Below, piece by piece: positions 617 to 36,009 of a stretch of 39,610 nucleotides of DNA; within the stretch, counting starts at the first letter, position 1; the number at the start of each line of letters is the position of its first letter. The notes under the pieces were generated by a model that was given only the letters and a program-made list of their open reading frames with translations, had not been told where the DNA came from and ran no database searches. The stretch is from positions 1 to 39,610 of the IMG/VR virus record IMGVR_UViG_3300035212_000256. One strand, 5' to 3'. Both the position numbers and the translations under genes were made by a program. Origin of the DNA: a virus.

Positions 617-3600
617 TAGTTACCTCCAATTGAATATGTGTCACGTGAGTAAAATTTTAAGATTGAAGAAAAGATTGATCTATTCGCTTCTCGAACTGCT
701 GGGTCTACTTGAATCAAAGGCTCCAAAGCCTGTTCAATTGCTTTGCGCTTTGCACGCTTAGCATCGACAAAGTTCCAAATAAGTTTCATCTCTGGGTCAT
801 TAGAGAATGATATAAATTCACGAATAGCCTTAGATGCTATAGCCATATTTTGTCTAGTACTTGAAGATATTGGTGTTTCTTTATCAAAAAGCATTTGCTC
901 TAAAGAACTAAAAAGTTTTTCTTCTGTTGCTATTTCAAATCCACCAGTTTGAAGTGATAGATTAAGTAACGGATTAGCACTTTTAATTTGAGTACGAGCA
1001 GAGGTAGCACGATTTATAATTGCGCGACGTTCTGGAATACTAGCCTCTTTATCTAGCAGTTCACGCTCTTGGCGTTCAATATCAAAGTATTGCTGCTTTG
1101 CCCTAGCAATTTGTACATTATCCAAATACTTTTCTAGTGATGGAATACCCACCAAGTCATTAGCCTCTAGCCATGCATAAGCACTTGAAGTATAATCTCC
1201 CACCTGAGGGGCAAAGATATAGGCTGCCTCACCATAAGTATCAATAGTGTTCTTATTTGTTATAGACCACTTCTTAACTTCATTAGTTTTCTGAATCAAT
1301 ACCTTTGTATTCTTATCACTACGGCTTACTGTATAAATAATTTTGCGTGGATTCTTTCCAATAAACATAGCAACCGCTAGTTCATATGGGTCAAAGACTT
1401 CATTAGATTCTGCCTTAGAAATACCAGCAAGAATATCAAAGAACTCGCTACGCAAACTTGTAACACCAACACGTTTAAGATAGTCAGGAACACCCTTACC
1501 CTCTGTGAGGGTAGGAGTAATTGGTGAAATCATTCCTAGTAGTGAACGTGCAGCAATTACGTTATGGGATGCAATCTTAATTGTTTTAAGATATTCATTC
1601 TTCTGCTCATCTGTAGGATTTTCTGGTAACTGAATGCTTTCATCACCAAATGCTTGTATATATGCAATAGCCTGAAATGCTGCAGTTATTTCTTGACGTG
1701 ACATCTCTTGACGTGGAAGCATGTTTCTTACGTTCTGCAAGAACATAGGAACAATGGCTCTTTGAATTGTAATATCATCGCCTAAATAACCTAGTGCAAT
1801 AGTATCGATTTCATCTGCAAGGTTCTCAGCAGGTGCATCTAATGGACCTGGTGCATAGCCAAGTATTGATCTAAAGCCAATAAAACTTAAGGCAGCAACA
1901 GGACCACTAAAACTAAACATACCAGCATCAGGAGAAAAAGATGGGTTAACTAAACGTAACTTAAGAGTTACATCATTAAATTGTGGAACCTTAAAGGAAC
2001 CACCAGTTAGTTTTTGCATTACTGGTTGGACTGCACTATTAATAATTGTATCTGTAGGTAGTACTACGTTTGGTTCGCCTTGGTCGTCATAGTAAATCTC
2101 ACCGCGAGCAGACAATCCCTGATGCGCAAGGCGCATACGATAGACAACCTGTAGTGGCTTCTCTCGCATTAAGCGATAGTAACGTCGCCAAAAGTCTTCA
2201 GTTGCTCTGTAAAAGCGAGCAACAGTTCTGGTAGATACTGCAAAGTTAGAACGAATAGCAGGATTATCTACATACTGTAGAACTCGATCAACTGCTTCAT
2301 TCATAGCAATTTCAGTATAACGCTTTGCTGCAAGGCTTTCTGCTATTTCTTCTGCTACTTCTTCTTTCATATTTTTGTTTTCAGCAAGAAGACTAGCCTT
2401 TGTTGATTTAGCAAACTCAGCCTGCAAACCAACATATTGATCTCGCAAGCGAGTATAAGTAGCAAGAACTGCTGGCTGACGGAAGATACCAGTAACCTGA
2501 CGGTCCATTTGTTCCATCAAAACATCGCCATGTTTAGCCCAAAGGCTTTGCAATTCTTGTCTTGGAATTAATTCAGTAAACTCAATAGATGTATTAATCT
2601 CACCCTGTAGTCTTGAACCAACGGTAGCCTTTTCAAACTCTTCAAATGAAATACCACCAGTTGACTTAGACCACTTACCAGCAATCTTATTTCCAACCTC
2701 GTCTTCATACTTGACAAGTGCATTGTGCCTAGCAACGACAGCATCAAATAGTTTATCGTTAAAAGAATTTGGTCCACCATGAAAGGCTGTACGCATATCA
2801 AGTAGCATTGTTTCTACGTGAATACGTGCAATATCTGCATCGCCTACCCCACGCTGACGGAATCCAGTAGTATCACCAAATTCATTTAAGAATTTAGTAA
2901 CGCCATCTGCACGTTTAGGGTCAATAAAAAACTTTTTAATCTGATAGTCATATTTAACACCAAGTACTTCTAGCATTTCAGTACGAGCAATTGCAAAATC
3001 TTGCGAAGTACGCAAACCATTGTTCCTAAAGAATGAAGTAACTGGGTCTACTACTACACCAGGAGCAATTGTTCTGGTATTAGCAACAAACCTACGGAAA
3101 AATTGATCAAAATGTGCAAGGGTTAAATACTTATCGTTTACTCGACGCAACTGTTCTGACGACAAAGGTCTAAACTTGCGACCTTTGTTTAAAGAAAGAT
3201 TATTTAACGCTTGAGAAAGTGTACTTTCTGTAAAAATAGCATCAATAATTTCTTTATCAAGTCGTCCACTTAGCGAACTACGGGCAGCAACAGATGATGC
3301 CATAGAGTTTAACGTATCTGGATTGTAAATAAATGCTTCTTTAATCCACTTAAAGTTTCCTATGGCTTCATCTGCACCATACATTGAAAAAACACGCTGA
3401 ACCGTTTCTTCTCTAATCATCATATTCGTAACTTCCTCTAAAGGAATACCCTTAGAGTCTGCAATTTCTTGTGGAATACGAATACGATCTTCAATAGAAA
3501 GACGTTCTTCTGCTCCACCCTTACGAAATGCTTTGTTAAGTCCACGTTTAATTGGACCAACTGCTGCCTTAGAGCCAGTAAGTGCAGTAAGAACTGCTCT

Positions 3601-8225: not shown

Positions 8226-8669
8226 TTACTTGTTTACGCTACCGCGAAGACCAGAGCCTCCGCCAAAACCCATACCGCCACGAAGTCCGCGACCACCGCG
8301 TGGTTTTACTGGAACTTTACGTGTTGTAGGTTTAACTGTTGTGCTTTTCTTGGCTTCTTTTTTGTCAATACGGTCACGCTGTGTAATTTGTTTATCAAAA
8401 GTGTTAATACCGCGTTGCATTGAACTTTTTTTAGCAATGCCAGGAGTTTTAACTTTACCGCGATTATTTCCTTTACCAACAGACATAGTTTTTCCATCTG
8501 GATAAACTATTGCAAGTTTGCCACTTGAAGTTAATTTGCCCTTACCAGTAGAACCAGCAAGAGGCGGCAAAGCACGACGAACCCTATCTTCAGATTTAGT
8601 AATCTTTGTAGGAGCCTTTGTTTTACCAGCCGTTACCTTCTTACCACTACGATCACGACTTGCTGCCAT
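8226..8669 (-). CDS. Lys/Arg-rich small protein between terminase and portal
   Basis: A 147-residue, strongly basic protein (many K, R, G, few acids) ending in Gly/Arg repeats (RGGRGLRGGMGFGGGSGLRG). I chose the ATG at 8669 (MAASRDRSGKK) because it follows the terminase stop by 8 bases and has an AGGAA site upstream; an ATG 30 bases earlier would overlap the terminase and has no clear SD. Probably disordered and nucleic-acid binding. It resembles in composition the basic proteins at 31151-34228. Function unknown; a packaged DNA-binding or assembly protein is possible. Confidence 0.7.
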   Translation of the reverse strand: MAASRDRSGKKVTAGKTKAPTKITKSEDRVRRALPPLAGSTGKGKLTSSGKLAIVYPDGKTMSVGKGNNRGKVKTPGIAKKSSMQRGINTFDKQITQRDRIDKKEAKKSTTVKPTTRKVPVKPRGGRGLRGGMGFGGGSGLRGSVNK

Positions 8670-14991: not shown

Positions 14992-16014
14992 ATGCTAGAA
15001 GTTAGCGAAGCATATAATAATACAATAGTAGAACGTATGAATAAACAATCATGGGTACAAGCAGGCACTGCGGTAAACGCAGGGTCTGCATCAGAAGCAG
15101 CACGACAAGCAGGATTAGACTGGAATGTTATGCTTGCAGATATGGAAGCAATTGTTTCCAACAAGGTCAATGAATACGAAACAGTAACTGACCACTATCC
15201 AGTACCTAAACGACAGGCTGTTATCAAACTTGGTAAAGAAAATACCAATGAAGTTATAGGTGTAGTCGGTGATAAGTACAAGATTGTGCAGAACATGGAA
15301 GTATTTTCTGCGCTTGATACGCTTGTTGATTCAGGTGATGCACGCTATACAGCAGCAGGTGAATACAACAAAGGCGCCAACATCTGGATGGTAATGGAAC
15401 TACCAGTCGGAGTACAAGTAGCCAATGACCCACACGCTGCGTTCTTGCTAGTGCAATCATCACATGATGGTTCATGTGCAGTACGTATTCGCCCTATCAT
15501 TGAGCGTTTATTCTGCGCTAATCAAATTAATCGCATCATCAAGGGTAAGCATAAGAACGCTTACACCTATGTAATGAAGCACACTACTAACTCACAGTTA
15601 TCAGTCAGCGACATACGCAACATCACTCAGTTGACTTATGATTCTATTCAAGAGTATGAAGCGGTAGCAAGTACACTACTACAACGCAAGGTAGATGATC
15701 GTGAAGTACGCAACATCTTTAAGTCTGTATGGGCATTACCATCTACAGTTGAAGAGATGCCAGAACATCTACTATCACAAGGCGAGAAGCGTCAACGCAC
15801 TATAGCATTGGCTGGTCGTGAGTCTGCTTGGAATATTTACAGTCAATCAGAAACACAAGAGAACATCAGAGGTACAGCATTCGGTGCATGGCAAGCAGTC
15901 ATTGAACATGCAGATCATCATGCTTCTGGTGGCTCTGATCGTCGTGCCATCGCCACCATCAGCGGACGTAATGACCGCATCAAAGACAAGGCACTAAGCC
16001 TAGTCCTTGTATAA
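14992..16014 (+). CDS. DUF932-like phage/plasmid protein
   Basis: 340 residues behind AAGGAGAAGCA. The middle contains YKIVQNMEVFSALDTLVDSG, then GANIWMVMELP and RIRPIIERLFCANQINRI, which match the DUF932 phage/plasmid-like family as I know it; length is typical. These proteins are widespread on mobile elements and lack a settled function. The C-terminus carries GTAFGAWQAVIEHADHH, also family-like. The next gene begins about 90 bases later after a gap with a GTATGCATAC palindrome (16021-16030). Confidence 0.8.
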   Translation: MLEVSEAYNNTIVERMNKQSWVQAGTAVNAGSASEAARQAGLDWNVMLADMEAIVSNKVNEYETVTDHYPVPKRQAVIKLGKENTNEVIGVVGDKYKIVQNMEVFSALDTLVDSGDARYTAAGEYNKGANIWMVMELPVGVQVANDPHAAFLLVQSSHDGSCAVRIRPIIERLFCANQINRIIKGKHKNAYTYVMKHTTNSQLSVSDIRNITQLTYDSIQEYEAVASTLLQRKVDDREVRNIFKSVWALPSTVEEMPEHLLSQGEKRQRTIALAGRESAWNIYSQSETQENIRGTAFGAWQAVIEHADHHASGGSDRRAIATISGRNDRIKDKALSLVLV

Positions 16015-16103
16015 TATTCCGTATGCATACTGCTAAGGCAGCGATAGCGCGGATGCACCTAAGCATGTGGATAAAAGGCTTAACTAAAAAACGAGAGGGA
16101 AAT

Positions 16104-16484
16104 ATGAATACAATCGAAATAACAACAGATAACAATGTAATAAACTATAATGAGTTAGAAGTAAAACGTTTCATTGAGAAAGCAGGAGAGACCCGTGACA
16201 TTAAATATAAAGTACGTGACTTCTTCAGTGAACTTGAATGGGAAAACGGTGAAACAACAATCACTCGTAGTCAAGTCAACGAGTTACTCGAATCAATTGG
16301 ATGCGACAAACTCCGAACAGACTTTACAGCAACTGTTACAATCACTGCTTATGTTAAATCTTATTCAGCAGAAGACGCAGATGAAGCAGCCGAATGTATT
16401 GCAGACGACATCACTGTAGAGATTGGTTCATCTGGTATTATAGGTATAGATAGTATTGAAGTCTTTGATGTAGAGGAAGAGTAA
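16104..16484 (+). CDS. Acidic protein of unknown function
   Basis: 126 residues from ATG 16104 (MNTIEITTDNN), chosen for the GAGAGGGAAAT before it; an in-frame ATG at 16023 would add 27 residues without an SD. Domain-like features: a basic helix (KVRDFFSELEW), a helix with LLESIGCDKL, then alternating strands TATVTITAYVKSYSA and an acidic end. The TAATG overlap couples it to the next gene. Not recognised. Confidence 0.65.
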   Translation: MNTIEITTDNNVINYNELEVKRFIEKAGETRDIKYKVRDFFSELEWENGETTITRSQVNELLESIGCDKLRTDFTATVTITAYVKSYSAEDADEAAECIADDITVEIGSSGIIGIDSIEVFDVEEE

Positions 16485-16639
16485 TGTTAGGCTATACACT
16501 TAATGATTTTAAAGATATGCAATATGCTATTGAAGAAGGTGTCTTCTATCTACCACCTTCAAACCACGATAACTCACGGCTCAACCTACAGAAGGCTTGG
16601 GATATGATTGAGGGACTCATTCAAGAAGGACGTGTTTAA
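16484..16639 (+). CDS. 51-residue protein
   Basis: MLGYTLNDFKDMQYAIEEGV then a FYLPP turn and a helix with QKAWDMIEGLIQEGRV. TAATG overlaps join it to both neighbours. It is short but shows clear amphipathic helices and ordinary codon use. Function unknown; the small size and place next to a winged-helix protein would fit an accessory factor, which is guesswork. Confidence 0.6.
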   Translation: MLGYTLNDFKDMQYAIEEGVFYLPPSNHDNSRLNLQKAWDMIEGLIQEGRV

Positions 16640-17013
16640 TGAGCCAAGCCTACCTACCCTATAATGGTACTGCTGGCTGGTCAGGTACAGATACATCTGA
16701 GCAGAGAGCGCTAGATAATTTGTACTCAGGTAGGGAATTAAACAACCAGCAAATAGCGTTAGCATATTTAAAAAGTAAAGGCACCAATGGTGCTACCTGG
16801 AAAGAGTTAGCAATTGAAACAGGATGGCATCACGGCACCTCAAGTGGCGTGTTGTCAGTACTGCACCAGTCAGGTGCAATAGTACGCACAATTAAAACAA
16901 GAAATAGATGCAAGATATACGTGCATCAGAATTTCAAAGACCAAGTAATGTATGAAGAATACAAACGGAAAGAAAAACTTTGTCCACATTGTGGACATGA
17001 CATCAATGCATAG
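16639..17013 (+). CDS. Winged-helix DNA-binding protein with C-terminal zinc knuckle
   Basis: 124 residues. Residues 37-90 form a winged-helix pattern: ALAYLKSKGTNGATWKELA, recognition helix region GWHHGTSSGVLSVLHQSG, and wing AIVRTIKTRNRCKIYV. CPHCGH at 115-120 could bind zinc with C88 or another residue. Such MarR/DprA-like winged helices occur in many actinophages. Likely a transcription regulator of this phage; possible targets are the palindromes upstream of 11116. It ends before the leader hairpin at 17039-17087. Confidence 0.7.
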   Translation: MSQAYLPYNGTAGWSGTDTSEQRALDNLYSGRELNNQQIALAYLKSKGTNGATWKELAIETGWHHGTSSGVLSVLHQSGAIVRTIKTRNRCKIYVHQNFKDQVMYEEYKRKEKLCPHCGHDINA

Positions 17014-17038
17014 CCGATTCCTATGCTATGATGGGACG

Positions 17039-17087
17039 ACTAGTGGGCGGTAGGTTTTGGCTCTCTCCTTGTCCTACCCCCACTAGT
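17039..17087 (+). promoter_or_regulatory. Leader hairpin with loop complementary to the next SD
   Basis: ACTAGTGGG (17039-17047) pairs with CCCACTAGT (17079-17087); after a one-base bulge GGTAGG pairs with CCTACC. Fifteen base pairs, 18-base loop. The loop holds TCTCCTT (17064-17070), complementary to AAGGAGA (17097-17103), the ribosome binding site of the nuclease gene, so a pseudoknot or switch is possible. A weak promoter may lie just upstream (TATGCT/TATGAT near 17020-17030). No T-run follows. Confidence 0.55.
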
Positions 17088-17106
17088 ATCTAATCAAAGG
17101 AGAAAC

Positions 17107-17880
17107 ATGGCAGAATTAGTTATACCTAGAGATAGGTACGGTAGACCTATGGTTGTACCACCCAAAGGTGGTAAGCCAGTAGCGTATACAAGAACAACAA
17201 CAGTTGCAGGTTCATTAGATGATGGCACTGGATTAGTAGCATGGAAGTTACGGATGGCAGCAACTGGTTTAACGCTGCGTCAAGACCTTTTACTTGCTGC
17301 ATCAGCAGCACGTGAAGACAAGTTAGAGATGGATAAGTTAGTAGAAGATGCTATGGAAGCAGCAGGTGCTACCAAGCAGGCTACAATCGGTACTGCTATT
17401 CACTCTCTTACAGAAAAACTAGATCGTGGTCAAGAACTTGGACCTATACCTGATGATTATGTAGCAGACATACAAGCGTATGCTGATGCAACTAAACATT
17501 TTACAAATGTTTTTATCGAACAGTTCTGTGTCTTAGATAAGTATAAAATTGCAGGCACACCAGATAGAATTGTTGAATACAAAGGTGAAAGGTTTATCTC
17601 TGACCTCAAGACAGGTAGTATTAGTTACCCAAATAAAATTGCCATGCAGTTAGCAGTGTATGCACACGGCTTGCCGTATGACCCTGCTACGGCAACCCGT
17701 AGTAATTGGGGTGACATCAACACAGAGAAAGGAATCATTGTGCATCTACCAGCAGGTAGTGGACAATGTACCCTACATTTTGTAGACTTAGTTCATGGTT
17801 GGAAAGGTATTGAACTAGCCATGAAAGTAAGAAAGCATAGAGAAAAGAAAAACATATCAACGCCGATACAAGGAGAATAA
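17107..17880 (+). CDS. PD-(D/E)XK exonuclease, RecB/Cas4-like
   Basis: 257 residues. Nuclease motifs in order: GTAIHS with H99, GTPDRI with D153, FISDLKTG with D166 and K168, and QLAVYA with Q181. This is the RecB/Cas4-type PD-(D/E)XK arrangement of a metal-dependent DNA exonuclease; there are no Cas4-type iron-sulfur cysteines. It opens the replication/recombination block and shares a stop-start overlap with the next gene, whose zinc motif may support it. Likely role: processing DNA ends for recombination or repair. The SD (AAAGGAGA) may be masked by the leader hairpin. Confidence 0.85.
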   Translation: MAELVIPRDRYGRPMVVPPKGGKPVAYTRTTTVAGSLDDGTGLVAWKLRMAATGLTLRQDLLLAASAAREDKLEMDKLVEDAMEAAGATKQATIGTAIHSLTEKLDRGQELGPIPDDYVADIQAYADATKHFTNVFIEQFCVLDKYKIAGTPDRIVEYKGERFISDLKTGSISYPNKIAMQLAVYAHGLPYDPATATRSNWGDINTEKGIIVHLPAGSGQCTLHFVDLVHGWKGIELAMKVRKHREKKNISTPIQGE

Positions 17881-18344
17881 TGACACACTCAGAAGCACCG
17901 ATCAGCATTACAGTTAAGTCAGCAGCAGGTTCTTTGGTTACAGTTCGTGCATCTAATGCAGAAGAACTAGATCAAACTGTTGCAATGACTCTCGCATCGC
18001 TAGCATCAGCAACAGAAGAACTCGAAAAAGCAGTGCGTGGCACTGGTTTTAGCGCACCAGCAGCAACTCCAATTGCACCAGCGGTTGGTTATGCAGCGCA
18101 AGCGCTAGGCGGTACAGTAATTGCTGAGTCTTTTAATCCAGCACCTGCACCAGCAGGTGGTGGTCAACGTATGTGTCCACATGGAACCATGACTAGAATT
18201 CATGGCATGACTGGTAAGTTTGGTCCATACAAAGGACACTTCTGCCCTGCTAAGCAAGGCGACCCAACTAAATGTACAACACAGTATGTAAAAGCAGGTT
18301 CACCAGAGTTTGCTTCGTTCGTAGCCGACCAGACAAAACAGTAA
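17880..18344 (+). CDS. Zinc-finger protein paired with the RecB-like nuclease
   Basis: 154 residues; TAATG overlap with the nuclease gene. The N-terminal two thirds are strand-rich, helical and then Ala/Pro-rich and disordered (residues 50-95). The C-terminus has CPHGTM, a GKFGPYKGHFCPA segment and a KCTTQYVKAG end: a Cys/His finger that I have seen beside RecB-like nucleases in other actinophages. Probably single-strand DNA binding or a recombination accessory; that is inference from neighbour and finger. Confidence 0.6.
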   Translation: MTHSEAPISITVKSAAGSLVTVRASNAEELDQTVAMTLASLASATEELEKAVRGTGFSAPAATPIAPAVGYAAQALGGTVIAESFNPAPAPAGGGQRMCPHGTMTRIHGMTGKFGPYKGHFCPAKQGDPTKCTTQYVKAGSPEFASFVADQTKQ

Positions 18345-22903: not shown

Positions 22904-23170
22904 ATGTATAAGTTCACATCCGAAGCAAATTGTATAGGCATAGATGTTGAGATGTTCTTTACAGAAGAAGGAAGTGGTACATTTAAAGAAGAGAATCTTC
23001 TTAAACGTATCTGTGGTGCATGTACTGTTAAGTCTGAGTGTCTTGACTATGCATTACAAAATAGTGTGCAAGGATGGTGGGGAGGCACATCAGAAATACA
23101 ACGCAAGAGATTGCGTAGACAACTTAATATAATTCCACAACCAGTCATAGTCGAAAGGAACTACGCATGA
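22904..23170 (+). CDS. WhiB-family iron-sulfur regulator
   Basis: 88 residues. C10, C37-x2-C40 and C46 are the four ligands of the WhiB [4Fe-4S] cluster, and QGWWGGTSEIQRKRLRR (56-72) is the WhiB G(V/I)WGG turn followed by the basic C-terminal helix. WhiB proteins bind the sigma factor of actinobacterial RNA polymerase and change promoter choice; phage copies can repress host genes. CAGGAGGATAA gives a strong SD. Near the end of the early operon, after two zinc ribbons and a sigma-like gene. This is the best single indicator of the host phylum. Confidence 0.93.
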   Translation: MYKFTSEANCIGIDVEMFFTEEGSGTFKEENLLKRICGACTVKSECLDYALQNSVQGWWGGTSEIQRKRLRRQLNIIPQPVIVERNYA

Positions 23171-23451: not shown

Positions 23452-23655
23452 TTATAATGAGCCAGGACCGTAATCTTTAGAGTTCTTATTAGCCCATTTA
23501 GCCAATGGCGCAGCCAATGCGCCGATTAGAATGGCATACTGTGGAGCCATGTCAGTAATAAGGGCAATGCCCATAGTCACGGCAGCAGCCACGACAGCAA
23601 GGGCGTAATCCCTGACAGCCTTCTTATGCTTTTCAGATAGTTTAAACTTCTTCAT
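23452..23655 (-). CDS. Holin candidate
   Basis: 67 residues with a basic amphipathic start (MKKFKLSEKHKKAVRDY) and two hydrophobic segments (about 18-35, ALAVVAAAVTMGIALI, and 39-53, YAILIGALAAPLAKW), then a charged tail. Two-span holins of this size are common. It overlaps the endolysin stop by ATGA and is the last late gene. The membrane pore it forms would release the endolysin to the wall. Confidence 0.8.
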   Translation of the reverse strand: MKKFKLSEKHKKAVRDYALAVVAAAVTMGIALITDMAPQYAILIGALAAPLAKWANKNSKDYGPGSL

Positions 23656-24098
23656 TTTGTATCCTTTTTTGGTAGTCGTTTTACTTTGGAAACAATCTTG
23701 TTTACCGCTTTAGCCTTGCCCAGCCAAGGAAACCATGCAGATGTATCACTGCCACAGCCATCCTTGATGGAGATATGCAGATGCTTATCGTGTTTGTTAG
23801 CCCCTGTGTATGGATAGATACCATTTTTCTGTGACCAAATACGTCCCTGAAATATAAGATACTTTACACGCTTGTCTTCTTGCAGTTTAATAAATAGTTC
23901 TACGCAGTTAATCCCATTTGCTGGGTCATGCGTTAAGTCAACTGCATATCCTGTGTTGTGATCTGAATTAGGATTCTGATTCAGATGCGCTGCTGATGGT
24001 AGTAGCCCATCGCTTGCCTTCTTGCGCTTAGGGCGCAAGGCTGTTGCTTGTCTAAGCACTGCTATCGCTGCAGGTGTTGCTCTCTTTGCGATTTTCAT
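23652..24098 (-). CDS. Endolysin, M15-type D,D- or L,D-peptidase
   Basis: 148 residues. SDHNTGYAVD with H47 and D54, plus KHLHISI with H106 and H108, form the zinc site of the M15 (VanY / L-alanyl-D-glutamate peptidase) family. It would cut peptide cross-links or stem peptides of peptidoglycan. There is no signal peptide, which fits release through the holin next door. A basic tail (KRLPKKDTK) may bind the wall. ATGA/TAATG overlaps on both sides place it in the lysis cassette. Confidence 0.9.
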   Translation of the reverse strand: MKIAKRATPAAIAVLRQATALRPKRKKASDGLLPSAAHLNQNPNSDHNTGYAVDLTHDPANGINCVELFIKLQEDKRVKYLIFQGRIWSQKNGIYPYTGANKHDKHLHISIKDGCGSDTSAWFPWLGKAKAVNKIVSKVKRLPKKDTK

Positions 24099-24298
24099 TA
24101 ATTGTTTCTTTCAAATAGTAATTTATATATGTCGTCTACTCTGCCTTCAAGACGATTGACTTGATCTTTGAGTGAGTTACCACCGTTGGGCCTTAGTTCA
24201 TACAAAAAATGTTTTACTAACCATTTAATGAAGATAGTAAATCCTCCTATAATACTAAATATGCCAACTATTACAGCAACCCACTCATTTACTGTCAT
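24098..24298 (-). CDS. Membrane protein with coiled coil, lysis-cassette member
   Basis: 66 residues. One hydrophobic segment (about 5-27, EWVAVIVGIFSIIGGFTIFI) is followed by a LRPNGGNSLKDQVNRLEGRV coiled coil. This layout is common in small phage proteins beside endolysins and is often called holin-like or antiholin. Stop-start overlap with both neighbours. It could be a second holin, an antiholin or a spanin-like anchor. Confidence 0.7.
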   Translation of the reverse strand: MTVNEWVAVIVGIFSIIGGFTIFIKWLVKHFLYELRPNGGNSLKDQVNRLEGRVDDIYKLLFERNN

Positions 24299-27804: not shown

Positions 27805-28359
27805 CTACCCCTTAATTCCATAAAGTGCGTACCTTGAGTGTTGGGCAAAGTTACTTCCAGAGTTTGTAGTGAAAGTAATTGAAGTAATTGCTGAGGTAGA
27901 AAGCCACAATGTAGAACGGAGCATTATTCTTCCGTCCCCGTTAGAATCCCAACCAGTTAAACTTCTTGCAGTTTTATATTTATTAGTAGAAGCATAGTCT
28001 AGAATATCAATAATTCCTGCACCAAAAGCACTCGCTGTGGCAGTATTTCCTGTAATGGTAAGTGAAAGCGGAATAGCATTTCCAAGGTCTTGGCTGGAAG
28101 CAGTTGAACCATTTCCAATTAATGAGTGCATACGATAATTGGTTGTTGTTGTATCTGAATTGAAGGTCATCTTTACATTGCCTTCTACTGCGGAAGCCAA
28201 GTCTCTAGAAATCCCACGAATTTGTAAATGCTTATAGGTTCCAGGAATAGAGGTAAAGGCAATAGATGACTGCCCACCCGAGCCGACAGTTACGGTTGCA
28301 ATTGATTCATAAGAACCTTTTTGTATTCCAGAAGCAATAATACCTAAACTGATTGCCAT
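27805..28359 (-). CDS. First member of a tandem beta-rich trio, receptor-side candidate
   Basis: 184 residues from ATG 28359 (MAISLGIIASGIQKGSYESI), chosen because it makes TAATG with the tail-fibre stop; an earlier ATG at 28386 would overlap the fibre by 28 bases. IATVTVGSGGQSSIAFTSIP and the GTYKHLQIRG strand define the shared scheme; the last strand is RYALYGIKG. Likely a virion surface protein. Confidence 0.7.
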   Translation of the reverse strand: MAISLGIIASGIQKGSYESIATVTVGSGGQSSIAFTSIPGTYKHLQIRGISRDLASAVEGNVKMTFNSDTTTTNYRMHSLIGNGSTASSQDLGNAIPLSLTITGNTATASAFGAGIIDILDYASTNKYKTARSLTGWDSNGDGRIMLRSTLWLSTSAITSITFTTNSGSNFAQHSRYALYGIKG

Positions 28360-30221
28360 TACACTATGTCTCCAGTAACTAGCCAAGTATCTGTTGCTAT
28401 CTTTATTGCTGAGGCAACCGCGTTAACTGCGCGTAATTTTGGAGAAGTGCTTGTAGCACCAGTTGATAGGATAGTTGTTGTTCCAGGAGTTACCGCCGTA
28501 ATTGTTGGTTGTCCTGCACCAGTAATCCAAGCCACATCAATTCTTGCACCCACTGGGAATGCTACAGAAGCATTGGTTGGGATAGATAGCGTTTGAGCAG
28601 AAGCATTGTTTGATGTAATAAACTTGTTGTTGTCTGTCAGTACAAATGTATATGTAGTTGCTGTATTGGCATTGATTGCTTGGTTAATCTTAGGGTCAGT
28701 TAAAGTCTTGTTAGTAAGAGTTTCTGCACCAGCAAGGGTTACTTCAAGTGCTGCCCAAGAGGATGCAGTTCCATTAGTAGTTAAATACTTACCTGAGTTA
28801 CTAGTCTGGCTAGGTACTACATACTGGGTAGAGTCTGTAGCCACAAGAGTCTTGCTAGTTGGAATTGCAGTACCATTGATAGACGTAGCGGTAGCCACAC
28901 CTAGTATAGGCGTAATAAGGGTTGGTGTATTATCCACTACGAACTTAGTACCAGTACCAGTTTGTGAGGCAATAGACGTTGCACTGCCTACAGATGTGAT
29001 AGGACCAGTTAGGTTAGATGGAGCAAGGACTGCAGTATCAATGTAGTTCTTGGTAACTGCATCCTGCGCATTGGTTGGGTCGCCAAGACCTGTAATCTTG
29101 TTCGTTCCCATAGCAAGAGCACCAGTCATTGTGCTACCAGACTTGAGTACTACAGTGTCAGAAAAGTTTCCTGTGTCAGCAATAGCAGCAGCAATCTCAT
29201 CAAGGGTATCAAGCGTGCTAGGTGCACCACCGATAAGGTTATTGATTGCCGTTCCAACAAATGATGTGGTAGCAATTTGAGTTGTAGCAGTTCCTGCTGT
29301 AGCAGTTGGAGCAGTTGGAGTTCCAGTTAGCGCTGGACTAGCCAACGGAGCATACGTGCTTGATGCTGTGGCTGTAGCCAACTTAGCATCTAATTGAGTT
29401 TGAATAGCAGAAGTTACACCATCAAGGTATCCAAGTTCTGTTGTAGATACTGTTGAGGACGGAGCAATTTTTGTCCAAGCAATCGCAGCAGAAGCATTAA
29501 CATCTGCATCTACAATGCTATTGGCAGCAATGGCTGCTGTAATACTAGCGTTAGCAGTTCCATTAAATGATGCAGAAGTACCAGTTACGTCACCTGTAAG
29601 GCTGATTGTACGCCCTGTGGCTAGTGCTGTGGCTGTTGCTGCGTTACCTGTGGTTGAACCAGATGAGCCAGTAACGTTACCCGTTACGTTACCAGTAACG
29701 TTGCCTGTAATGTTTCCTGTAAAAGTACCAGCGATAGCACCAGTACCAGTAATGGTTGGGCTAGTAATAGTTGGGGTTGCGATGGTAGGAGATGTACCAA
29801 ATACTAAAGAACCAGTACCTGTTTCATCAGAAATAACGCCTCGTAGTTGAGTAGAAGTAGTTGCGGCGTGTGCTGCAAGAGTTCCTTCTGCATGATCGTT
29901 AGCCTCTTGATAGTCACGACCAATAGCCATATGGCGAACCTCTGCACCAGCAGAGTGAGCCTGTGCTACAGAACCGTTAATGTTGCGAACAATTGATAGC
30001 GTATTTCCAGAAACAGGGTTTGTTGTGCTAGAAAATACATCTACAATTTCTTCAAGGGCTGTATCTGGGTCAATAACAATTGTATAGGTTTGATTAGCCG
30101 TCATTGTAATACCGCCCATAAGGGCTGGTCCAGAAACTACTGTAATAGAACCACTGCTAGAAGTAATTGCGGTAGTTAAAGTTGTTCTCTGTGAACGGGA
30201 TGAGTATTTTCTAACTGTCAT
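28359..30221 (-). CDS. Tail fibre protein
   Basis: 620 residues, beta-rich and Thr/Ala/Gly/Ser-rich. It begins MTVRKYSSRSQRTTLTTAI and has a 5-fold repeat of a TGNVTGN-type unit (about residues 165-185), then LDGVTSAIQTQLDAKL, a motif seen in many phage tail fibres, and a C-terminal part rich in LTNKTLTDPKIN and TGAGQPTITAV. A fibrous, trimeric shaft is likely. The gene begins 9 bases after the connector-like gene. It is the probable host-recognition fibre together with the three small genes downstream. Confidence 0.85.
   Translation of the reverse strand: MTVRKYSSRSQRTTLTTAITSSSGSITVVSGPALMGGITMTANQTYTIVIDPDTALEEIVDVFSSTTNPVSGNTLSIVRNINGSVAQAHSAGAEVRHMAIGRDYQEANDHAEGTLAAHAATTSTQLRGVISDETGTGSLVFGTSPTIATPTITSPTITGTGAIAGTFTGNITGNVTGNVTGNVTGSSGSTTGNAATATALATGRTISLTGDVTGTSASFNGTANASITAAIAANSIVDADVNASAAIAWTKIAPSSTVSTTELGYLDGVTSAIQTQLDAKLATATASSTYAPLASPALTGTPTAPTATAGTATTQIATTSFVGTAINNLIGGAPSTLDTLDEIAAAIADTGNFSDTVVLKSGSTMTGALAMGTNKITGLGDPTNAQDAVTKNYIDTAVLAPSNLTGPITSVGSATSIASQTGTGTKFVVDNTPTLITPILGVATATSINGTAIPTSKTLVATDSTQYVVPSQTSNSGKYLTTNGTASSWAALEVTLAGAETLTNKTLTDPKINQAINANTATTYTFVLTDNNKFITSNNASAQTLSIPTNASVAFPVGARIDVAWITGAGQPTITAVTPGTTTILSTGATSTSPKLRAVNAVASAIKIATDTWLVTGDIV
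29669..29728 (-). repeat. 12-base tandem repeat in the tail fibre gene
   Basis: Five imperfect 12-base units beginning CAGTAACGTTAC, CCGTTACGTTAC, CAGTAACGTTGC, CTGTAATGTTTC and CTGTAAAAGTAC (plus strand). They encode the Gly-Asn-Val-Thr repeats of the fibre shaft. The spacing is exactly in frame, so changes in copy number would keep the reading frame. Confidence 0.8.
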
Positions 30222-30230
30222 TGACTATTC

Positions 30231-31154
30231 CTATCGACTATATCGAATGCGTGGGGGATATTGTTGTTGCTGTCCTTGTACTTCTTCTGCAAGACGTGCT
30301 GTATAAAGTTTGTACAATTCTCGCGTTGCTGAATTTCCAGAACCATATGGACGCTTACTGTCCAACTCATCAGCCTGTGGGCTGAATACAACATTACGTG
30401 CTGGGTCAATAAAGGATAGAAGACGATAGGCTGCACCAAGTACAACTACATCTTTAACAGACTCAGGCAATCCTGTTTGTTCAGAAAATGAATCTTCTGA
30501 TGCTGTGCCAAGAACTGTTGGTGCTGTTGCATAAGTTACATTAATCTTACGACCAGTCATAATGCGCATATCGTTGATTGTAATTGTTTGTGCGCCAGAA
30601 CCCCATGTTACTGCGTCTGGAGATGAATCCCATTCATACTTAGAAATAGGAACCCAGCGTTTTGTTGAACCAATATCCTGCCATGAAAGACGTAGAATAT
30701 TTTGTATATTTAAATTATTAAAAACATACGCATCAACTGTTGAGTTATATGTAAAGGATGTATTTTTAGCAGCAAACATGCTACTACCAATAGCACGAAT
30801 TGTATCTTGAATTGCACGCTTAACTGAACTACGTGGAAACGTAGGCTTAATTACAACACGTGAACCTGCAGCATGTGTTACTGCTGTTGTTCCCATAAAT
30901 CCTCGACCATAAGGAGGAACCGTTGCATTTCTTGAAATGCGGTCATACTCGGTAATCCAAATTAGTTCATCATCAATTTCTACAACACCTTCACCAACCT
31001 GATCTGCTGCTAAAGAAAACACAGTAGGTACAGAAAGCGTAGATGTTGTGGTAGAAATATCAGATGTAAGGTGAGTAGTTTGATCTTGCTGTAAAGTGTA
31101 ACCAGAAAGATTCATTGTTACTTCATTGGTTAAATCATCTAATGTTGATGTCAT
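30231..31154 (-). CDS. Head-to-tail connector-like protein
   Basis: 307 residues. DELIWITEYDRI and a GRGFMGTTAVTHAAG turn are found in the first third; helical RSSVKRAIQDTIRAIGSSMF follows; the last third has TGLPESVKDVVVLGAAYRLL. Adaptor or tail-completion proteins of podoviruses have this size and position, just before the fibre. Its ATG overlaps the stop of the basic 435-residue gene (ATGA). The exact class is unknown. Confidence 0.6.
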   Translation of the reverse strand: MTSTLDDLTNEVTMNLSGYTLQQDQTTHLTSDISTTTSTLSVPTVFSLAADQVGEGVVEIDDELIWITEYDRISRNATVPPYGRGFMGTTAVTHAAGSRVVIKPTFPRSSVKRAIQDTIRAIGSSMFAAKNTSFTYNSTVDAYVFNNLNIQNILRLSWQDIGSTKRWVPISKYEWDSSPDAVTWGSGAQTITINDMRIMTGRKINVTYATAPTVLGTASEDSFSEQTGLPESVKDVVVLGAAYRLLSFIDPARNVVFSPQADELDSKRPYGSGNSATRELYKLYTARLAEEVQGQQQQYPPRIRYSR

Positions 31155-32458
31155 TTAATTATTTTACCTATGTTTCTAGTGCTTTTTGCTGCTTCTTCTG
31201 CTTTGCGTATTATTTCGCCTGCTTCTTTTATTTGGCGTTCGTTAAGAATTCTACGCTGATTACGAATAACTCGTTTAAGTTCAGCAGTCTTGGCTTTTTT
31301 ATCCGCAGGATTTGTAGACTTTTTAATTTCTCTTATGAGTCTAGTGGTATTAGTCCGAACACCTGGCTTCACACCTGAAGCGCCTTTTTTAGGTTTAAAG
31401 TCAGCCCCAACTTTTAATGATGGGTTTTCAACTTCTTTCATAGAACGCTGAGCCAGTATTGTTGCTTCTTTATCACCAGTAGTACCAACATTACCTCTTG
31501 TTGGTTTTTCTGCACCAGATGCAATACGGCTTTCAATTGAACGCTGTGGGTCTTGTGCACTTCTGGCACCAGGTCCACCTTTATCGCGAAATCTAATGCG
31601 GTAGTATCTATCAATAATTTCTTTTTCTCTGGCATCATTTCTTGTAGTGCCAGTTGAACCTCTCTTAGGAGTAGGCTTAGGACGTGCAGGATTTACACGC
31701 GGAGTTAATACATCACGCAATTTGTCGCGTTTAATTCTATCTCTTTCAGCCTTTACATCTTTAGCCTTGCGTGGTTCTATTTTACGTACAGTAATAGCGC
31801 TACCATTTTTATTTGTTGTACGCTTTACTGGTCTTGATACTGTAACTTTTTCTTTAGTAAGGAATGGTTTTACTTCACCAGAAACTATTCTTGTTCTATC
31901 TGCTGGTCTTACAAAGTCAGTACTTTTTATATCTCTTACAATTCTGCCTTTTGTTACAGTTTTTTTAACTTTAACTGGACGAGCAGGACCTTCTGCTCTT
32001 TGTGTTAATTTAACATCTATTTTTTTACCAGGACCCATTCTAACCACAGGTCCACCAGAGGTTCTTCTAGTAATAGTAGCGCCTGGTTTTGGTTTAGTAG
32101 AACGAAGGGCGGCACTGCCACCTTCACGACGAGCCCTTGGACCAGCAGCCTTTTCAGCAGCACGCGTAGCAGCAACTTTAGATATCTTACCCTTAGGAGG
32201 ACCACTGTATGTAGTTCTTAATCCACCACCAGTATTTGGTTTTGGTTTACCAGAACGACTACTTTGATTGGCTATATTAATTGCTCGATCAAGAGTTCTA
32301 CCACTAACTGCTTTAGGTCCACCCTTTTGTGCAATTACTTTTCTGGCAACTTGTCGCATCTCACTTTGAGCAAGTTTCTTTACACCTTGCTTTGCTGCCT
32401 GAGCAGCAATTGCACGTGCAATTGCAAGTGCTATTGGTACTACTAATGGTCCTGGCAT
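31151..32458 (-). CDS. Large basic protein (Lys/Arg-rich), 435 residues
   Basis: A hydrophobic N-terminal helix (residues 3-22, GPLVVPIALAIARAIAAQAA) is followed by more than 350 residues rich in Lys, Arg, Pro, Thr and Gly with very few hydrophobics, mostly disordered, and an acidic/Lys mixed helix at the C-terminus. One step downstream of the small basic genes and upstream of the connector. It may bind packaged DNA or form a scaffold around the head-tail interface. Family not recognised. Confidence 0.7.
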   Translation of the reverse strand: MPGPLVVPIALAIARAIAAQAAKQGVKKLAQSEMRQVARKVIAQKGGPKAVSGRTLDRAINIANQSSRSGKPKPNTGGGLRTTYSGPPKGKISKVAATRAAEKAAGPRARREGGSAALRSTKPKPGATITRRTSGGPVVRMGPGKKIDVKLTQRAEGPARPVKVKKTVTKGRIVRDIKSTDFVRPADRTRIVSGEVKPFLTKEKVTVSRPVKRTTNKNGSAITVRKIEPRKAKDVKAERDRIKRDKLRDVLTPRVNPARPKPTPKRGSTGTTRNDAREKEIIDRYYRIRFRDKGGPGARSAQDPQRSIESRIASGAEKPTRGNVGTTGDKEATILAQRSMKEVENPSLKVGADFKPKKGASGVKPGVRTNTTRLIREIKKSTNPADKKAKTAELKRVIRNQRRILNERQIKEAGEIIRKAEEAAKSTRNIGKIIK

Positions 32459-32459
32459 G

Positions 32460-32744
32460 TTACCACTTAACCTTATCTGCCCAGTATGCTGCGCTTAGTT
32501 TGCCTTTAGAAATATTTTTAGCGTGACGTGCTTTAAAAGATTTACGACGTGCTGCATATGAAGCCGACTCACCAGTTTTTTTAGGTGAACCAGATACTCC
32601 CTGTTGCCCAAAGCGAATAGTCTTAACAGTTGTACCAACCTTGGCTACAACTACATGAGACTTCTTGGGGTGGTTAGGGGTACGCTTTGGCTTGTTAAAG
32701 CCTGCCACCCCAGCCCTTGTTAGCCGTGAATCTTTTTTATTCAT
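32460..32744 (-). CDS. DUF6321-like basic protein
   Basis: 94 residues. DSRLTRAGVAGFNKPKRTP, then a FGQQGVSGSPKK segment and FKARHAKNISKGKLSAAYW. I recall this combination from the DUF6321 family, widely found in phages and giant viruses, without known function. Strongly basic. ATGA overlap with the DUF5872-like gene upstream and one-base gap to the 435-residue gene. Confidence 0.7.
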   Translation of the reverse strand: MNKKDSRLTRAGVAGFNKPKRTPNHPKKSHVVVAKVGTTVKTIRFGQQGVSGSPKKTGESASYAARRKSFKARHAKNISKGKLSAAYWADKVKW

Positions 32745-33136
32745 CTGAATTTCGCTGTTTTCTTTGCTATAGATTTAGGTTGTCTTACAAATTGCTTACC
32801 CTTGGCTGTGCCAACCCGCTTTGCAGCGGTGGTTTTAGCGTACTCAGAGGCCGATAGAGCCTCTCTAGCCTTCTTGGGAAGGTAACGCTCACCAGTAGCC
32901 TTTGCCCCCTGTGTGCTGGGCTTACCTGACTTTGTGCCCCACTTCTCTTTAGTCCATTTGGACAAAGATTTCTGAGCCTTAGTCTTGCTACCTGAGTAAC
33001 CACCGCCTGCTTTTTTATAGGCTTGGGCTAACAGTTGGGCTTTACGGGCAGACCATTGACCAGACTTGCCACCCTTAGACCCAGCCATAATCTGGTTCTT
33101 AAGTCGTTCACGGGTACTTGCTTTGGTATATGCCAT
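32741..33136 (-). CDS. DUF5872-like basic protein
   Basis: 131 residues. LSKWTKEKWGTKSGKPSTQG, then RYLPKKAREALS and SEYAKTTAAKRVGTAKGK, a pattern I associate with DUF5872, seen in large DNA viruses and phages. Highly basic, few hydrophobics except the Trp-Thr-Lys-Glu-Lys-Trp core. It may bind nucleic acid. Directly coupled to the DUF6321-like gene; the two often seem to travel together. Confidence 0.7.
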   Translation of the reverse strand: MAYTKASTRERLKNQIMAGSKGGKSGQWSARKAQLLAQAYKKAGGGYSGSKTKAQKSLSKWTKEKWGTKSGKPSTQGAKATGERYLPKKAREALSASEYAKTTAAKRVGTAKGKQFVRQPKSIAKKTAKFR

Positions 33137-33155
33137 TATCTGCCTTTAACTTCTG

Positions 33156-33494
33156 TTACTTAATTCGTCTTTTTGGTCTTGTTGAAGACTTGCGATAACC
33201 AGATGCCTGGCCGCCTACATAGGAAACCGTGTTTCCAGGTTTAGACCTTACGGTCTTTGTCGACTGGTTCATTGCGCCTGGCTTGAGAGACTTGCCAGTA
33301 TTGGCGCTAGCGCCACCGCTGGTTGAACCACTAATACTAATTTTCATTCCAGACTTTGTTACAGAAGTTTTCGGAGCAGCCTTCTTGTTTCCAGCAGCAT
33401 TTGGGTTCAAATACCCTGATGTTCTGTTGGTAGCACCAGTAGTATTTTTTGCTGGCTTAGGTCGTGCTCCGCTAATTGTAGCCTTTTTCTTCAT
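33156..33494 (-). CDS. Basic low-complexity protein
   Basis: 112 residues, Lys/Thr/Gly/Ser/Pro-rich (KKKATISGARPKPAKNTTG; GSTSGGASANTGKSLKPGAM; SGYRKSSTRPKRRIK at the end). Probably disordered and DNA-binding. AAGGAGATAACA precedes the ATG, so it is expressed. Part of the basic-gene run. Confidence 0.65.
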   Translation of the reverse strand: MKKKATISGARPKPAKNTTGATNRTSGYLNPNAAGNKKAAPKTSVTKSGMKISISGSTSGGASANTGKSLKPGAMNQSTKTVRSKPGNTVSYVGGQASGYRKSSTRPKRRIK

Positions 33495-33533
33495 TGTTAT
33501 CTCCTTAGATGAATGTTAAACTAATTACTTTTT

Positions 33534-33719
33534 TTAGATTACTTTAAATTTGTTTGGATTTTTACCAACGCCTGGCTTAGGTTTTGCTGTTGGCTTTGGC
33601 TTAGAACCTGTAATACCTACTATTTTTCCCACTAATGCTGGGCCTTTTGGCGCCATTGCAGGCTTTGTCGTTGGCTTTTTAGTACCAGGCTGAAGAAATT
33701 TATCATTCCCTTGACGCAT
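33534..33719 (-). CDS. Basic low-complexity protein, 61 residues
   Basis: MRQGNDKFLQPGTKKPTTKP then PTAKPKPGVGKNPNKFKVI. Lys/Pro/Gly-rich, no hydrophobic core. It resembles the neighbouring genes in composition and in using KPKP/KPGVGK blocks. Expression is supported by position in the operon and a purine-rich stretch before the ATG. Confidence 0.55.
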   Translation of the reverse strand: MRQGNDKFLQPGTKKPTTKPAMAPKGPALVGKIVGITGSKPKPTAKPKPGVGKNPNKFKVI

Positions 33720-33731
33720 AATTATAATCCC

Positions 33732-34043
33732 TTACTTCTTCTTGTATTTTTTAATAGTTGCTGGGTCATTAAAACCCTTAATAATTACATCGTAATCTTT
33801 GGGACGAGTAAGTCCTGGCTTAATCTTCATAGGAGGCTTCTTGCCTTCTAATAGAAAATCATCAAGTGTTTTCTTTTTAGAAGTTTGAGCCTTAGGCTTT
33901 GCTGTACTAGTAGACTTTTTCTTTGGACCTGCCATTGGCATAGGCTTTGCTGTTCTACCACCAGGTGTAACTCTAGGCATAGGAACTGGTGTAGCAGTTG
34001 ACTTGCGAACTCTTGGCTTAGGTGCTTTTGGTTTCATTGCCAT
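33732..34043 (-). CDS. Basic Pro/Lys-rich protein, 103 residues
   Basis: MAMKPKAPKPRVRKSTATPV and PMPRVTPGGRTAKPMPMAGP, then a small hydrophobic segment KKTLDDFLLEGKKPPM and KDYDVIIKGFNDPATIKKYK at the end. The last 40 residues may fold; the first 60 look disordered. TAATG coupled to its upstream neighbour. Confidence 0.6.
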   Translation of the reverse strand: MAMKPKAPKPRVRKSTATPVPMPRVTPGGRTAKPMPMAGPKKKSTSTAKPKAQTSKKKTLDDFLLEGKKPPMKIKPGLTRPKDYDVIIKGFNDPATIKKYKKK

Positions 34044-34228
34044 TATTTCTTTTTACCCATCTTCTTAGGCATAGCCTTTTTAGCAGACTTTTTAACTGTC
34101 TTCTTTTTTGTTTTCTTTGCGCCCATTTTCATGGCCTTATCTTCCAGACCTTCAGCCTTGGCATACATCTTTGCTGCCTTCATACCTGCTGGCGTATATG
34201 GAAACTTCTTTTCTCCAAACATCGGCAT
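34043..34228 (-). CDS. Basic Lys-rich protein, 61 residues
   Basis: MPMFGEKKFPYTPAGMKAAK then a tail of KKTKKKTVKKSAKKAM type. The first 30 residues could be helical, and the last 25 resemble histone H1-like Lys/Ala tails. Starts in a TAATG overlap with the Cys-rich gene upstream. First of seven basic genes in a row. Confidence 0.65.
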   Translation of the reverse strand: MPMFGEKKFPYTPAGMKAAKMYAKAEGLEDKAMKMGAKKTKKKTVKKSAKKAMPKKMGKKK

Positions 34229-34671
34229 TAGATTACTCCTACTTCTTTTAGTGAGGTTATAGATTCTTTTGTAATTGATTGTGCTGTTGTTGCTGCGGTA
34301 TCAGCATCAAATGCTGAACCCATAACATTAGACGCTTCTACTGCTGCCTTAACATGTGCCATGCTAGTTCCAGCAGGCTGGATACCCTGAGCACGTGCAC
34401 TTCTATAAGCATCTAATTCGCCATTCCATTTTTTGTTAGACATAGCCTTACTGGAATTAGCATCTCCTGTATTTAGTTGTAGGGTACGTGCCTTGCATCC
34501 GAAACAATCATCATCGCAATTCACGTGGTCAATATCAATATCTTCTTCATCTTTAAACGGTTTTTCAGATACTAAGCCACATAGTAGGCAGTCATATTGT
34601 GTCACCCTAAAGTTATGGGCTTCATCAAAGCCCCATTCTTTTACCCTGCTAATATGATTGCAATATGTCAT
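34228..34671 (-). CDS. Cys/His-rich protein, zinc-binding candidate
   Basis: 147 residues. C4 and H6, then CLLCG (residues 29-33), DHVNCDDDCFGCKA (49-62) give at least six possible zinc ligands. The C-terminal part (about 70-147) is helical and Ala/Thr-rich. ATGA overlap with the upstream gene. Likely a structural or assembly protein from its place between capsid and the basic block, but the fold is unknown; it does not contain the HNH nuclease signature. Confidence 0.6.
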   Translation of the reverse strand: MTYCNHISRVKEWGFDEAHNFRVTQYDCLLCGLVSEKPFKDEEDIDIDHVNCDDDCFGCKARTLQLNTGDANSSKAMSNKKWNGELDAYRSARAQGIQPAGTSMAHVKAAVEASNVMGSAFDADTAATTAQSITKESITSLKEVGVI

Positions 34672-35001: not shown

Positions 35002-36009
35002 TTAAACGTTCTGACGACCTGATGCAGCGGTTTCAATACGAACCATTGCTGGTGTGCGGTAAAGCGCCCAGTTGATGATTCCGTACCAGCCTGCTGGTGA
35101 GAAACGGTTGAAACGGTCTTGGATAACTCCAACTTCCATTCCTGGTTCCTTCCAGACAGCCTCTGCAAGAGCCTGTGCTCCAACAACATATGTGTTATAA
35201 ACACGTGTCTGTGTTGTGCTTGAGCCTGCACCTGACTGTGAGTTTGTAGCGTTTGCTGTTTCGATGAAACGAACGCCTTCCCATGAACCTGTTTCTCCGC
35301 CGTAAAGTGGAGCAGCATTCTGGTACTCATGTGGTGTACGCCATACGTTGTTACCTGTCTCGGTGCGGAGATCAGCAGAAACCTCTGGGTGGATGTATGA
35401 AACATACATTCCAGAAGCCTTGTACTGAACACCAGCAGCACGCATCTTGGTAACTGCAGTGCGGATAGCAGCAGACTTCATTGTGTCTGCGCCTGTAATT
35501 GCTGTCTTAGCAGCAACTGTTCCAACACCTTCGTATACGTTTGTTACTGACTGAACTGAAGATGCTGTAGATACACGAACGATGTTCGCGCTAGCATCCA
35601 ACTTAGCAACAACAGCAGCATCAAGTGTCTTGGTCATGTTAAAGCCAATTGCGTTAGCAACCCAAGGGTCGATGTTAGCGATTGACATTAGGTTGATCTT
35701 CTTAACTGGAAGCACTGAGCGTCCGAGTTCAAGTTGAGCAATGTCAAGATAAGATGTTGCTGGTAGTGCAACTGAATCTGGGTCAACAGTCTCTGAGAGA
35801 GTTGCTCCTGCTACAGTTGTGTCAGCAATATCTGTGTTAAACTGGAAACGGATTGAAGATCCGTTGTGTGTAAGTGAGCCGATCTTCTTGTCGGCAATCT
35901 CGCGGAACTTTGGCAATACACGGAGGTTGGTTTCAATCAACTTATCGTATGCTAAAGTTACAAGATTAGCACCAACACCAGAGGTGGTGGTAGAAAAGAC
36001 ATCTGCCAT
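35002..36009 (-). CDS. Major capsid protein
   Basis: 335 residues. TTSGVGANLVTLAYDKLIET, ADKKIGSLTHNGSSIRFQFN, LGRSVLPVKKINLMSIANID and AALYGGETGSWEGVRFIET follow the N4-gp56-like type of HK97-fold capsid proteins (assembly without visible cleaved N-terminus). The scaffold-like gene directly upstream and the hairpin after it fit a capsid gene. GAGGG lies 11 bases before the ATG. Clear as a capsid; the family assignment is from memory. Confidence 0.85.
   Translation of the reverse strand: MADVFSTTTSGVGANLVTLAYDKLIETNLRVLPKFREIADKKIGSLTHNGSSIRFQFNTDIADTTVAGATLSETVDPDSVALPATSYLDIAQLELGRSVLPVKKINLMSIANIDPWVANAIGFNMTKTLDAAVVAKLDASANIVRVSTASSVQSVTNVYEGVGTVAAKTAITGADTMKSAAIRTAVTKMRAAGVQYKASGMYVSYIHPEVSADLRTETGNNVWRTPHEYQNAAPLYGGETGSWEGVRFIETANATNSQSGAGSSTTQTRVYNTYVVGAQALAEAVWKEPGMEVGVIQDRFNRFSPAGWYGIINWALYRTPAMVRIETAASGRQNV

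Follow-up and report, generated by a model that had tools for sequence, protein, structure and literature searches.

DNA packaged by tailed phages is thought to be neutralized by cations and polyamines, not by proteins (PMC3281028). Tlr6F (Pfam family DUF5754, PF19058) was described in 2015 as a protein of unknown function that almost all polinton-like viruses and many giant viruses conserve, as do several virophages and some phages (PMC4642659), and it was still uncharacterized in 2025 (PMC12220804). Here we describe a run of basic late genes, referred to as the island, in IMG/VR virus record IMGVR_UViG_3300035212_000256, a freshwater-type tailed phage classed as linear, all 39,610 bases of which were analysed (the window). 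The original prediction, made from the letters of the window, had picked out seven consecutive Lys/Arg-rich genes (B1 to B7 below) and proposed that they supply DNA-condensing proteins packaged with the genome, like viral histone-like proteins. The observation is real, non-random and more general than that prediction could see. On comparison with relatives, the unit is a slot in the late operon kept for cationic proteins, with a conserved core consisting of B6, which resembles Tlr6F, and B5.

The island occupies positions 31151–34228, and all seven open reading frames (ORFs) were verified as closely spaced genes of one operon on the minus strand, the late head/neck operon (Table 1). The seven proteins have isoelectric points (pI) of 10.36–11.93, 21–34% Lys plus Arg (Lys 13–34%, Arg 0–12%), 0–9% Asp plus Glu, no Cys and a high share of disorder-promoting residues; their net charges range from +13 to +72 and sum to +199 at one copy each. 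The neighbours on either side are acidic or neutral. A pI of at least 10.3 is found in eight of the 53 probable genes of the window, seven of these eight are contiguous, and none of 200,000 shuffles of the gene order reproduced this contiguity. The coding strand of the island is A-rich, and random sequence of the same composition already yields mildly basic translations (a net charge of +0.08 to +0.13 per residue), which, together with the near absence of relatives of B3 and B4, is what one might expect if the run had no selected function and simply arose from purine-rich, low-complexity DNA. However, all seven proteins are more positive than mononucleotide shuffles of their own sequences (z +1.6 to +2.9), whereas the late genes on either side of the island have a lower charge than their own shuffles (z -2.8 to -5.3), so that composition contributes in part but is insufficient as a full account. 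Furthermore, the basic pattern is slot-wide across relatives, and B5 and B6 are conserved despite strongly diverged silent sites. We therefore consider a by-product origin highly improbable; for B1, B5 and B6 it is refuted by their conservation, while B3 and B4 may individually be of this kind.

Table 1. Coordinates and properties of the features discussed. Positions are those of the window, except for L216, where they refer to its own contig
Feature	Coordinates	Strand	Properties
B1	34043-34228	minus	61 aa, pI 10.4, 34% Lys, no Arg; MPMFGxKKFPYTxAGxKAAK family
B2	33732-34043	minus	103 aa, pI 10.7, Pro/Lys-rich, PVPMP motif; homologues in few relatives
B3	33534-33719	minus	61 aa, pI 11.0, Pro/Lys-rich; single weak relative
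B4	33156-33494	minus	112 aa, pI 11.9, zero Asp/Glu, low complexity, clear Shine-Dalgarno; no relatives found
B5	32741-33136	minus	131 aa, pI 10.9, two modules
B6	32460-32744	minus	94 aa, pI 11.5, phrog_7595; most conserved island gene
B7	31151-32458	minus	435 aa, pI 11.5, net charge +72
Left slot boundary	34228-34671	minus	conserved acidic 147-aa late protein, phrog_10483/24600
Right slot boundary	30231-31154	minus	late protein of 307 aa, conserved, phrog_7578; also weakly matches tail-protein family phrog_1101
Major capsid protein	35002-36009	minus	phrog_1357
Eighth basic gene	8226-8669	minus	147 aa, pI 11.64, net charge +31, computed from upstream GTG start
WhiB-family transcription factor	22904-23170		Pfam E 2e-14
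Bridge protein L216	1167-1460	minus	97 aa; contig of a metagenome-assembled genome titled Opitutae

The major capsid protein of the window has about 40% identity with those of Streptomyces phage FlowerPower and related Beephvirinae. The window and FlowerPower also largely agree in gene order, which runs scaffold, capsid, 34668, 34228, slot, 30231, 28359, 24295 (numbers being window positions). A WhiB gene is also present in both, and in agreement with this gene we infer an actinobacterial host for the window phage. In a comparison that set out from B6, 19 loci (including FlowerPower, which is without B6) carry both boundary genes in this order, and between the boundaries 97 of 108 ORFs have a pI of at least 10, in contrast to 2 of 74 genes of this lineage that are separated from B6 by a distance of over eight genes. 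The slot ORFs of this set and the genes of the window form about 34 sequence clusters. A second search began from the capsid alignment, the capsid gene allowing relatives to be found independently of island content and without the bias of a B6 start; it gave 39 contigs with capsid and right boundary, of which 34 have at least three ORFs of pI 10 or more in the slot; B6 is present in 32, and an island without it in three (L105, L132 and L139). B1 (again the first island gene in relatives, with a weak match to phrog_33179, E 9e-4), B5 and B6 recur across slots, B2 and B7 are found in a few relatives, and B3 and B4 in one or none. The relatives of B7, which has an Ala-rich, helix-like N-terminal stretch and then a Lys/Arg-rich, probably disordered body, are about 30% identical to it and similar in charge. 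The remaining slot genes are replaced by unrelated, equally basic genes, other occupants including a DUF6496 protein and several unnamed families. The seven-gene order, a search for which in related phages had been suggested as a check, was thus not conserved; since genes turn over while position and charge stay fixed, it is the slot and its charge that are conserved, and the run, thought unusual for a phage of about 40 kb, is non-random within its genome but the rule within its own lineage.

Two further features of the slots were noted. Within the island of some relatives there is a non-basic 246-aa protein (L036, 3281–4021; L063, 4736–5476) that looks glycosyltransferase-like by eye. A short motif, KVSQxTIDxIK, is repeated in otherwise different basic island proteins of L009, L012, L016 and L019, and related stretches of 47–49 aa occur in ORFs adjoining the terminase gene of L226 and L229.

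The eighth basic gene, also correctly called in the original prediction, marks a second slot, between the terminase and portal genes. Where the terminases of relatives are 84–88% identical, one or two basic ORFs of pI 10.6–12, not conserved, occupy this gap in nearly every case, and L258 (2301–4476) and L272 (3787–5773) have five to six basic genes there; the gap measures 8 bases in most of the more distant relatives, and in FlowerPower it is filled by an endolysin. Two second-slot ORFs have a stretch of 47–49 aa in common with main-slot proteins, and one second-slot ORF, from G044, resembles the N-terminus of B7 by eye; from such common stretches the two slots appear to exchange genes. Several second-slot proteins of L258 and L272, otherwise different, have a common N-terminal tag of the type MANxxKxxKGxKKAxK. 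The tag is amphipathic and MANIKKVVKGVKKATK-like, and is possibly a targeting or packaging signal. Such Lys-rich amphipathic N-termini (MANIKKVVKGVKKATK in L258 and L272), like the Ala-rich N-terminus of B7, could also belong to membrane-active cationic peptides that assist lysis. We give this very little chance, as the lysis-type genes of the window lie away from the island, at 23452–24298, and neither B5 nor B6 has a long hydrophobic segment.

The strong turnover of genes at a fixed site, the existence of a second slot and the fact that the entire island can be absent are also what would be expected of an accessory hotspot, in which small, fast-changing anti-defence or anti-competitor genes are expressed late, or their products reach the newly infected host inside the particle, the charge serving to bind host nucleic acids or acidic proteins. 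Such a hotspot should be of mixed charge, yet 90% of slot ORFs have a pI of at least 10; no Pfam or NCBIfam family of such function was matched (PADLOC was not searched), and B5 and B6 are conserved far beyond usual accessory genes. We regard this explanation as unlikely.

Of particular importance is B6, which is about 75–94% identical among relatives whose capsid proteins are about 36–88% identical. Its fourfold-degenerate sites differ at about 0.45–0.7 of positions, near saturation, which excludes recent horizontal transfer as the source of the high protein identity; the combination of conserved protein and near-saturated silent sites indicates that B6 is under strong purifying selection. 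In L003 and L004 the silent sites of B6 are more diverged than those of the capsid gene (0.60–0.64 vs 0.30–0.35), pointing to additional exchange of B6 from one lineage to another. B6 matches phrog_7595 over its full length (E 6e-40, positions 4–96 of 96). Against Pfam it scores 15.8 bits with DUF6321 (PF19846; cut-off 28.5) and 11.6 bits with DUF5754 (cut-off 27.4), below membership in both cases, although at E<0.1 DUF6321 matches 28 of 58 B6 homologues (best 7.6e-4) and DUF5754 25 of the 58 (best 0.0043). A search for DUF5754 in genomes carrying B6 found the small protein L216, which scores 45.3 bits with PF19058, well above the cut-off, and also matches the B6 profile (E 3e-18, model positions 10–95). 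As L216 matches both, B6 is, at the level of sequence profiles, a distant homologue of Tlr6F. L216 bridges families that are separate in Pfam and PHROG, namely DUF5754, DUF6321 and phrog_7595.

B5 is made up of an N-terminal module (GSKGGxxGQWSARKAQLLAxxY), which is phrog_17747/DUF5872-like, and a C-terminal module (SLxKWTKExW...RYLPxxA...GKQF, phrog_14910). DUF5872 (PF19197) matches residues 8–75 of B5 with 24.0 bits (E 6e-5), under its cut-off of 27.5, so that the DUF5872- and DUF6321-like labels first given to island genes hold as resemblances and not as memberships. The two modules are separate genes in other phages, and the fused B5 is 79–91% identical among relatives of this lineage that keep the fusion. 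In L046 the C-terminal module is instead fused to B6, which hints at a functional link between the two.

Outside this lineage, B6 is found in unrelated phages that infect roseobacters, SAR116, Synechococcus, Prochlorococcus and Vibrio, and in contigs of metagenome-assembled genomes (MAGs) assigned to many phyla. Cultured phages with B6 include the roseophages CRP-4, CRP-5, CRP-9 and P12053L, HMO-2011 and the cyanophage KBS-S-2A. In the unrelated phages 43% of proteins just upstream of B6 are basic, compared with 5% far away, and in the MAG contigs its neighbours are likewise enriched for basic proteins (near vs far, Fisher p 6e-4). The B6 gene of other phages is part of late modules: it lies directly before the capsid gene region in KBS-S-2A, between a tail accessory factor and a stabilization protein in a P22-like phage, and between lysis and terminase genes in CRP-9. 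In Roseobacter phage SIO1 (NC_002519.1) the B6 gene, at 24065–24277, is unannotated in the reference genome. B6 also resembles a segment of phrog_220, annotated 'minor head protein and DNA pilot': matches were obtained with 57 of the 58 B6 members (best E 9e-8), over positions 535–604 only of the 1338-position profile and not over most of it. No phrog_220 member carrying this segment was found among the fetched loci, where the only fusions were that of L046 and three short MAG ORFs; the short fusion ORFs of L187 and L194 look like artefacts of ORF calling.

The phrog_220 segment, the position of the island between capsid and neck/tail genes, and weak matches of 15 of the 58 B6 members to Phage_tail_tube_init (best E 2e-4) might indicate that the island encodes neck/tail or ejection proteins, that is, internal virion proteins travelling with the DNA or small morphogenesis factors, whose charge would serve contact with the portal or DNA end and not condensation. 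The tail-tube similarity is confined to a minority of members and was judged unreliable; morphogenesis factors, moreover, should be neither dispensable nor interchangeable, and the island genes are both. A neck/tail or ejection role is, in our view, improbable.

We tentatively propose, with somewhat less than even confidence, that the island encodes optional late cationic, DNA-associated proteins that are probably packaged with the DNA. The slot between the 34228 and 30231 genes would be a conserved late-operon locus for such proteins, made together with head proteins; they would probably go into the head along with the DNA, or else cover it shortly before or after it is packaged, and the DNA would be partly neutralized and organized in the manner of virus-encoded protamines or nucleoproteins. 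B5 and B6 would be the folded, conserved members, and the others largely disordered cationic chains able to swap for one another, charge mattering more than sequence. Purely as arithmetic, about 17% of the phosphates would be offset if each of the eight proteins were present in 60 copies, which would make the proteins an aid to cations and not their replacement, and the seven island proteins would fill about 8,000 nm3. As the Tlr6F family spans very different hosts and capsids, the function of B6 and Tlr6F may be tied to viral DNA and not to one host. DNA binding, and above all packaging, is what we infer for the island proteins from their charge, lack of Cys, disorder-promoting residues, head/neck position and interchangeability, the phrog_220 segment and the Tlr6F link, which together make this mechanism the most likely one.

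Alternatively, charge and predicted disorder would equally suit non-specific binding of nucleic acids in a late host takeover, in which unpackaged cationic proteins cover or condense the nucleoid of the host, or attach to ribosomes or RNA, and shut down host functions. B6 shows a very weak similarity to uL24 (E 0.15–0.35), which could be read in this way, but the uL24 and baseplate similarities (E 0.08–0.4) were judged to be due to chance. The genes stand in the late head/neck operon and not in the early region, and the B6 superfamily is found in viruses whose hosts belong to different domains of life (PMC4642659); host takeover therefore seems quite unlikely.

Several observations weigh against packaging. 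According to the literature, evidence for a substantial contribution of basic proteins to the neutralization of phage DNA is lacking (PMC3281028). Four metagenomic relatives with capsid proteins about 40% identical (L150, L151, L155 and L162) have no island, and FlowerPower has neither B5 nor B6 in its genome and no island in its slot; such sister phages of the same capsid lineage show that the basic proteins are optional for this virion design, which argues against an essential role in packaging. Compensating basic proteins elsewhere in island-free phages were looked for and none was found, G033, a metagenomic contig of 40,911 bases analysed over 40,000 of them, having no protein of pI 10 or more with at least 19% Lys plus Arg. 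The GC content of the island-free metagenomic relatives is 0.47–0.57, compared with 0.38–0.44 in the others, and AT-rich composition is a partial confounder of this comparison. The structural models of B5 and B6 are of modest confidence (mean predicted local distance difference test score, pLDDT, 69). The model of B6, which has two helices and a beta hairpin, gave no significant PDB match in sequence or fold (the folds of the other six were not searched), and Foldseek against PDB and viral models returned nothing at E<=0.001. No island protein has a Pfam match to histone, HU, IHF, Lsr2 or another known DNA-binding family, and virion proteomics of B5- or B6-bearing phages was not found in the literature searched.

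Histone-like packaging nevertheless remains the leading candidate explanation of the island: the basic late genes are real and the charge of the slot is kept, although no histone-like fold emerged and sister phages do without the genes. It is interesting to speculate further that aquatic tailed phages package chromatin-like cationic mixtures from a charge-inheriting slot, and that the Tlr6F superfamily, including B6, is a nucleoprotein common to tailed phages, virophages, polinton-like viruses and giant viruses, an extension that we hold to be rather doubtful. A dedicated, compositionally conserved cationic late locus in a widespread group of aquatic phages would challenge the view that cations and polyamines alone neutralize packaged DNA. 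Island phages offer a tractable phage system for learning the function of Tlr6F, with relatives that carry or lack the island as natural controls.

Elsewhere in the window, a 1719-aa late protein at 616–5775 has no Pfam, PHROG or NCBIfam match and is possibly an internal virion protein; gp9 of FlowerPower (1635 aa), downstream of the portal gene, is similarly large. A large tail-fibre-like protein at 28359–30221 bears GNVTGNVTGNVTG repeats. FlowerPower (L298) has an array of 21 tRNA genes at 15986–18057, directly upstream of the scaffold and capsid genes, compared with none in the window.

Among known systems, the island differs from baculovirus P6.9-type protamines in that it is not arginine-rich. 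The DVNP of marine giant viruses (PMC11953307) is likewise a virus-encoded putative nucleoprotein, and is present in one virion proteome, but it is usually a single gene and not an island, and no relation to it was detected in Pfam scans. Basic DNA-binding proteins of the PBCV-1 virion (PMC3281028) and P64 of ascoviruses (PMC6163548) are similarly viral proteins of high pI for which binding to packaged DNA has been proposed or shown, although they belong to large eukaryotic viruses and are backed by experimental evidence; no sequence relation to the island proteins was found, and no search aimed at one was made. FlowerPower (NC_048706) is of the same capsid lineage, with largely the same head and neck gene order, and differs in its island-free main slot, its lack of B5 and B6 and its endolysin. 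DUF5872, also annotated in giant virus CpV-BQ1 (PMC12085832), matches the N-terminal half of B5, which stays below the curated cut-off and has phrog_14910 as a second module. Tlr6F, a small protein of many DNA viruses, is linked to the island through the near full-length homology of B6 and L216; B6 differs in falling under the Pfam cut-off and in being one of several basic genes grouped together in a tailed phage.

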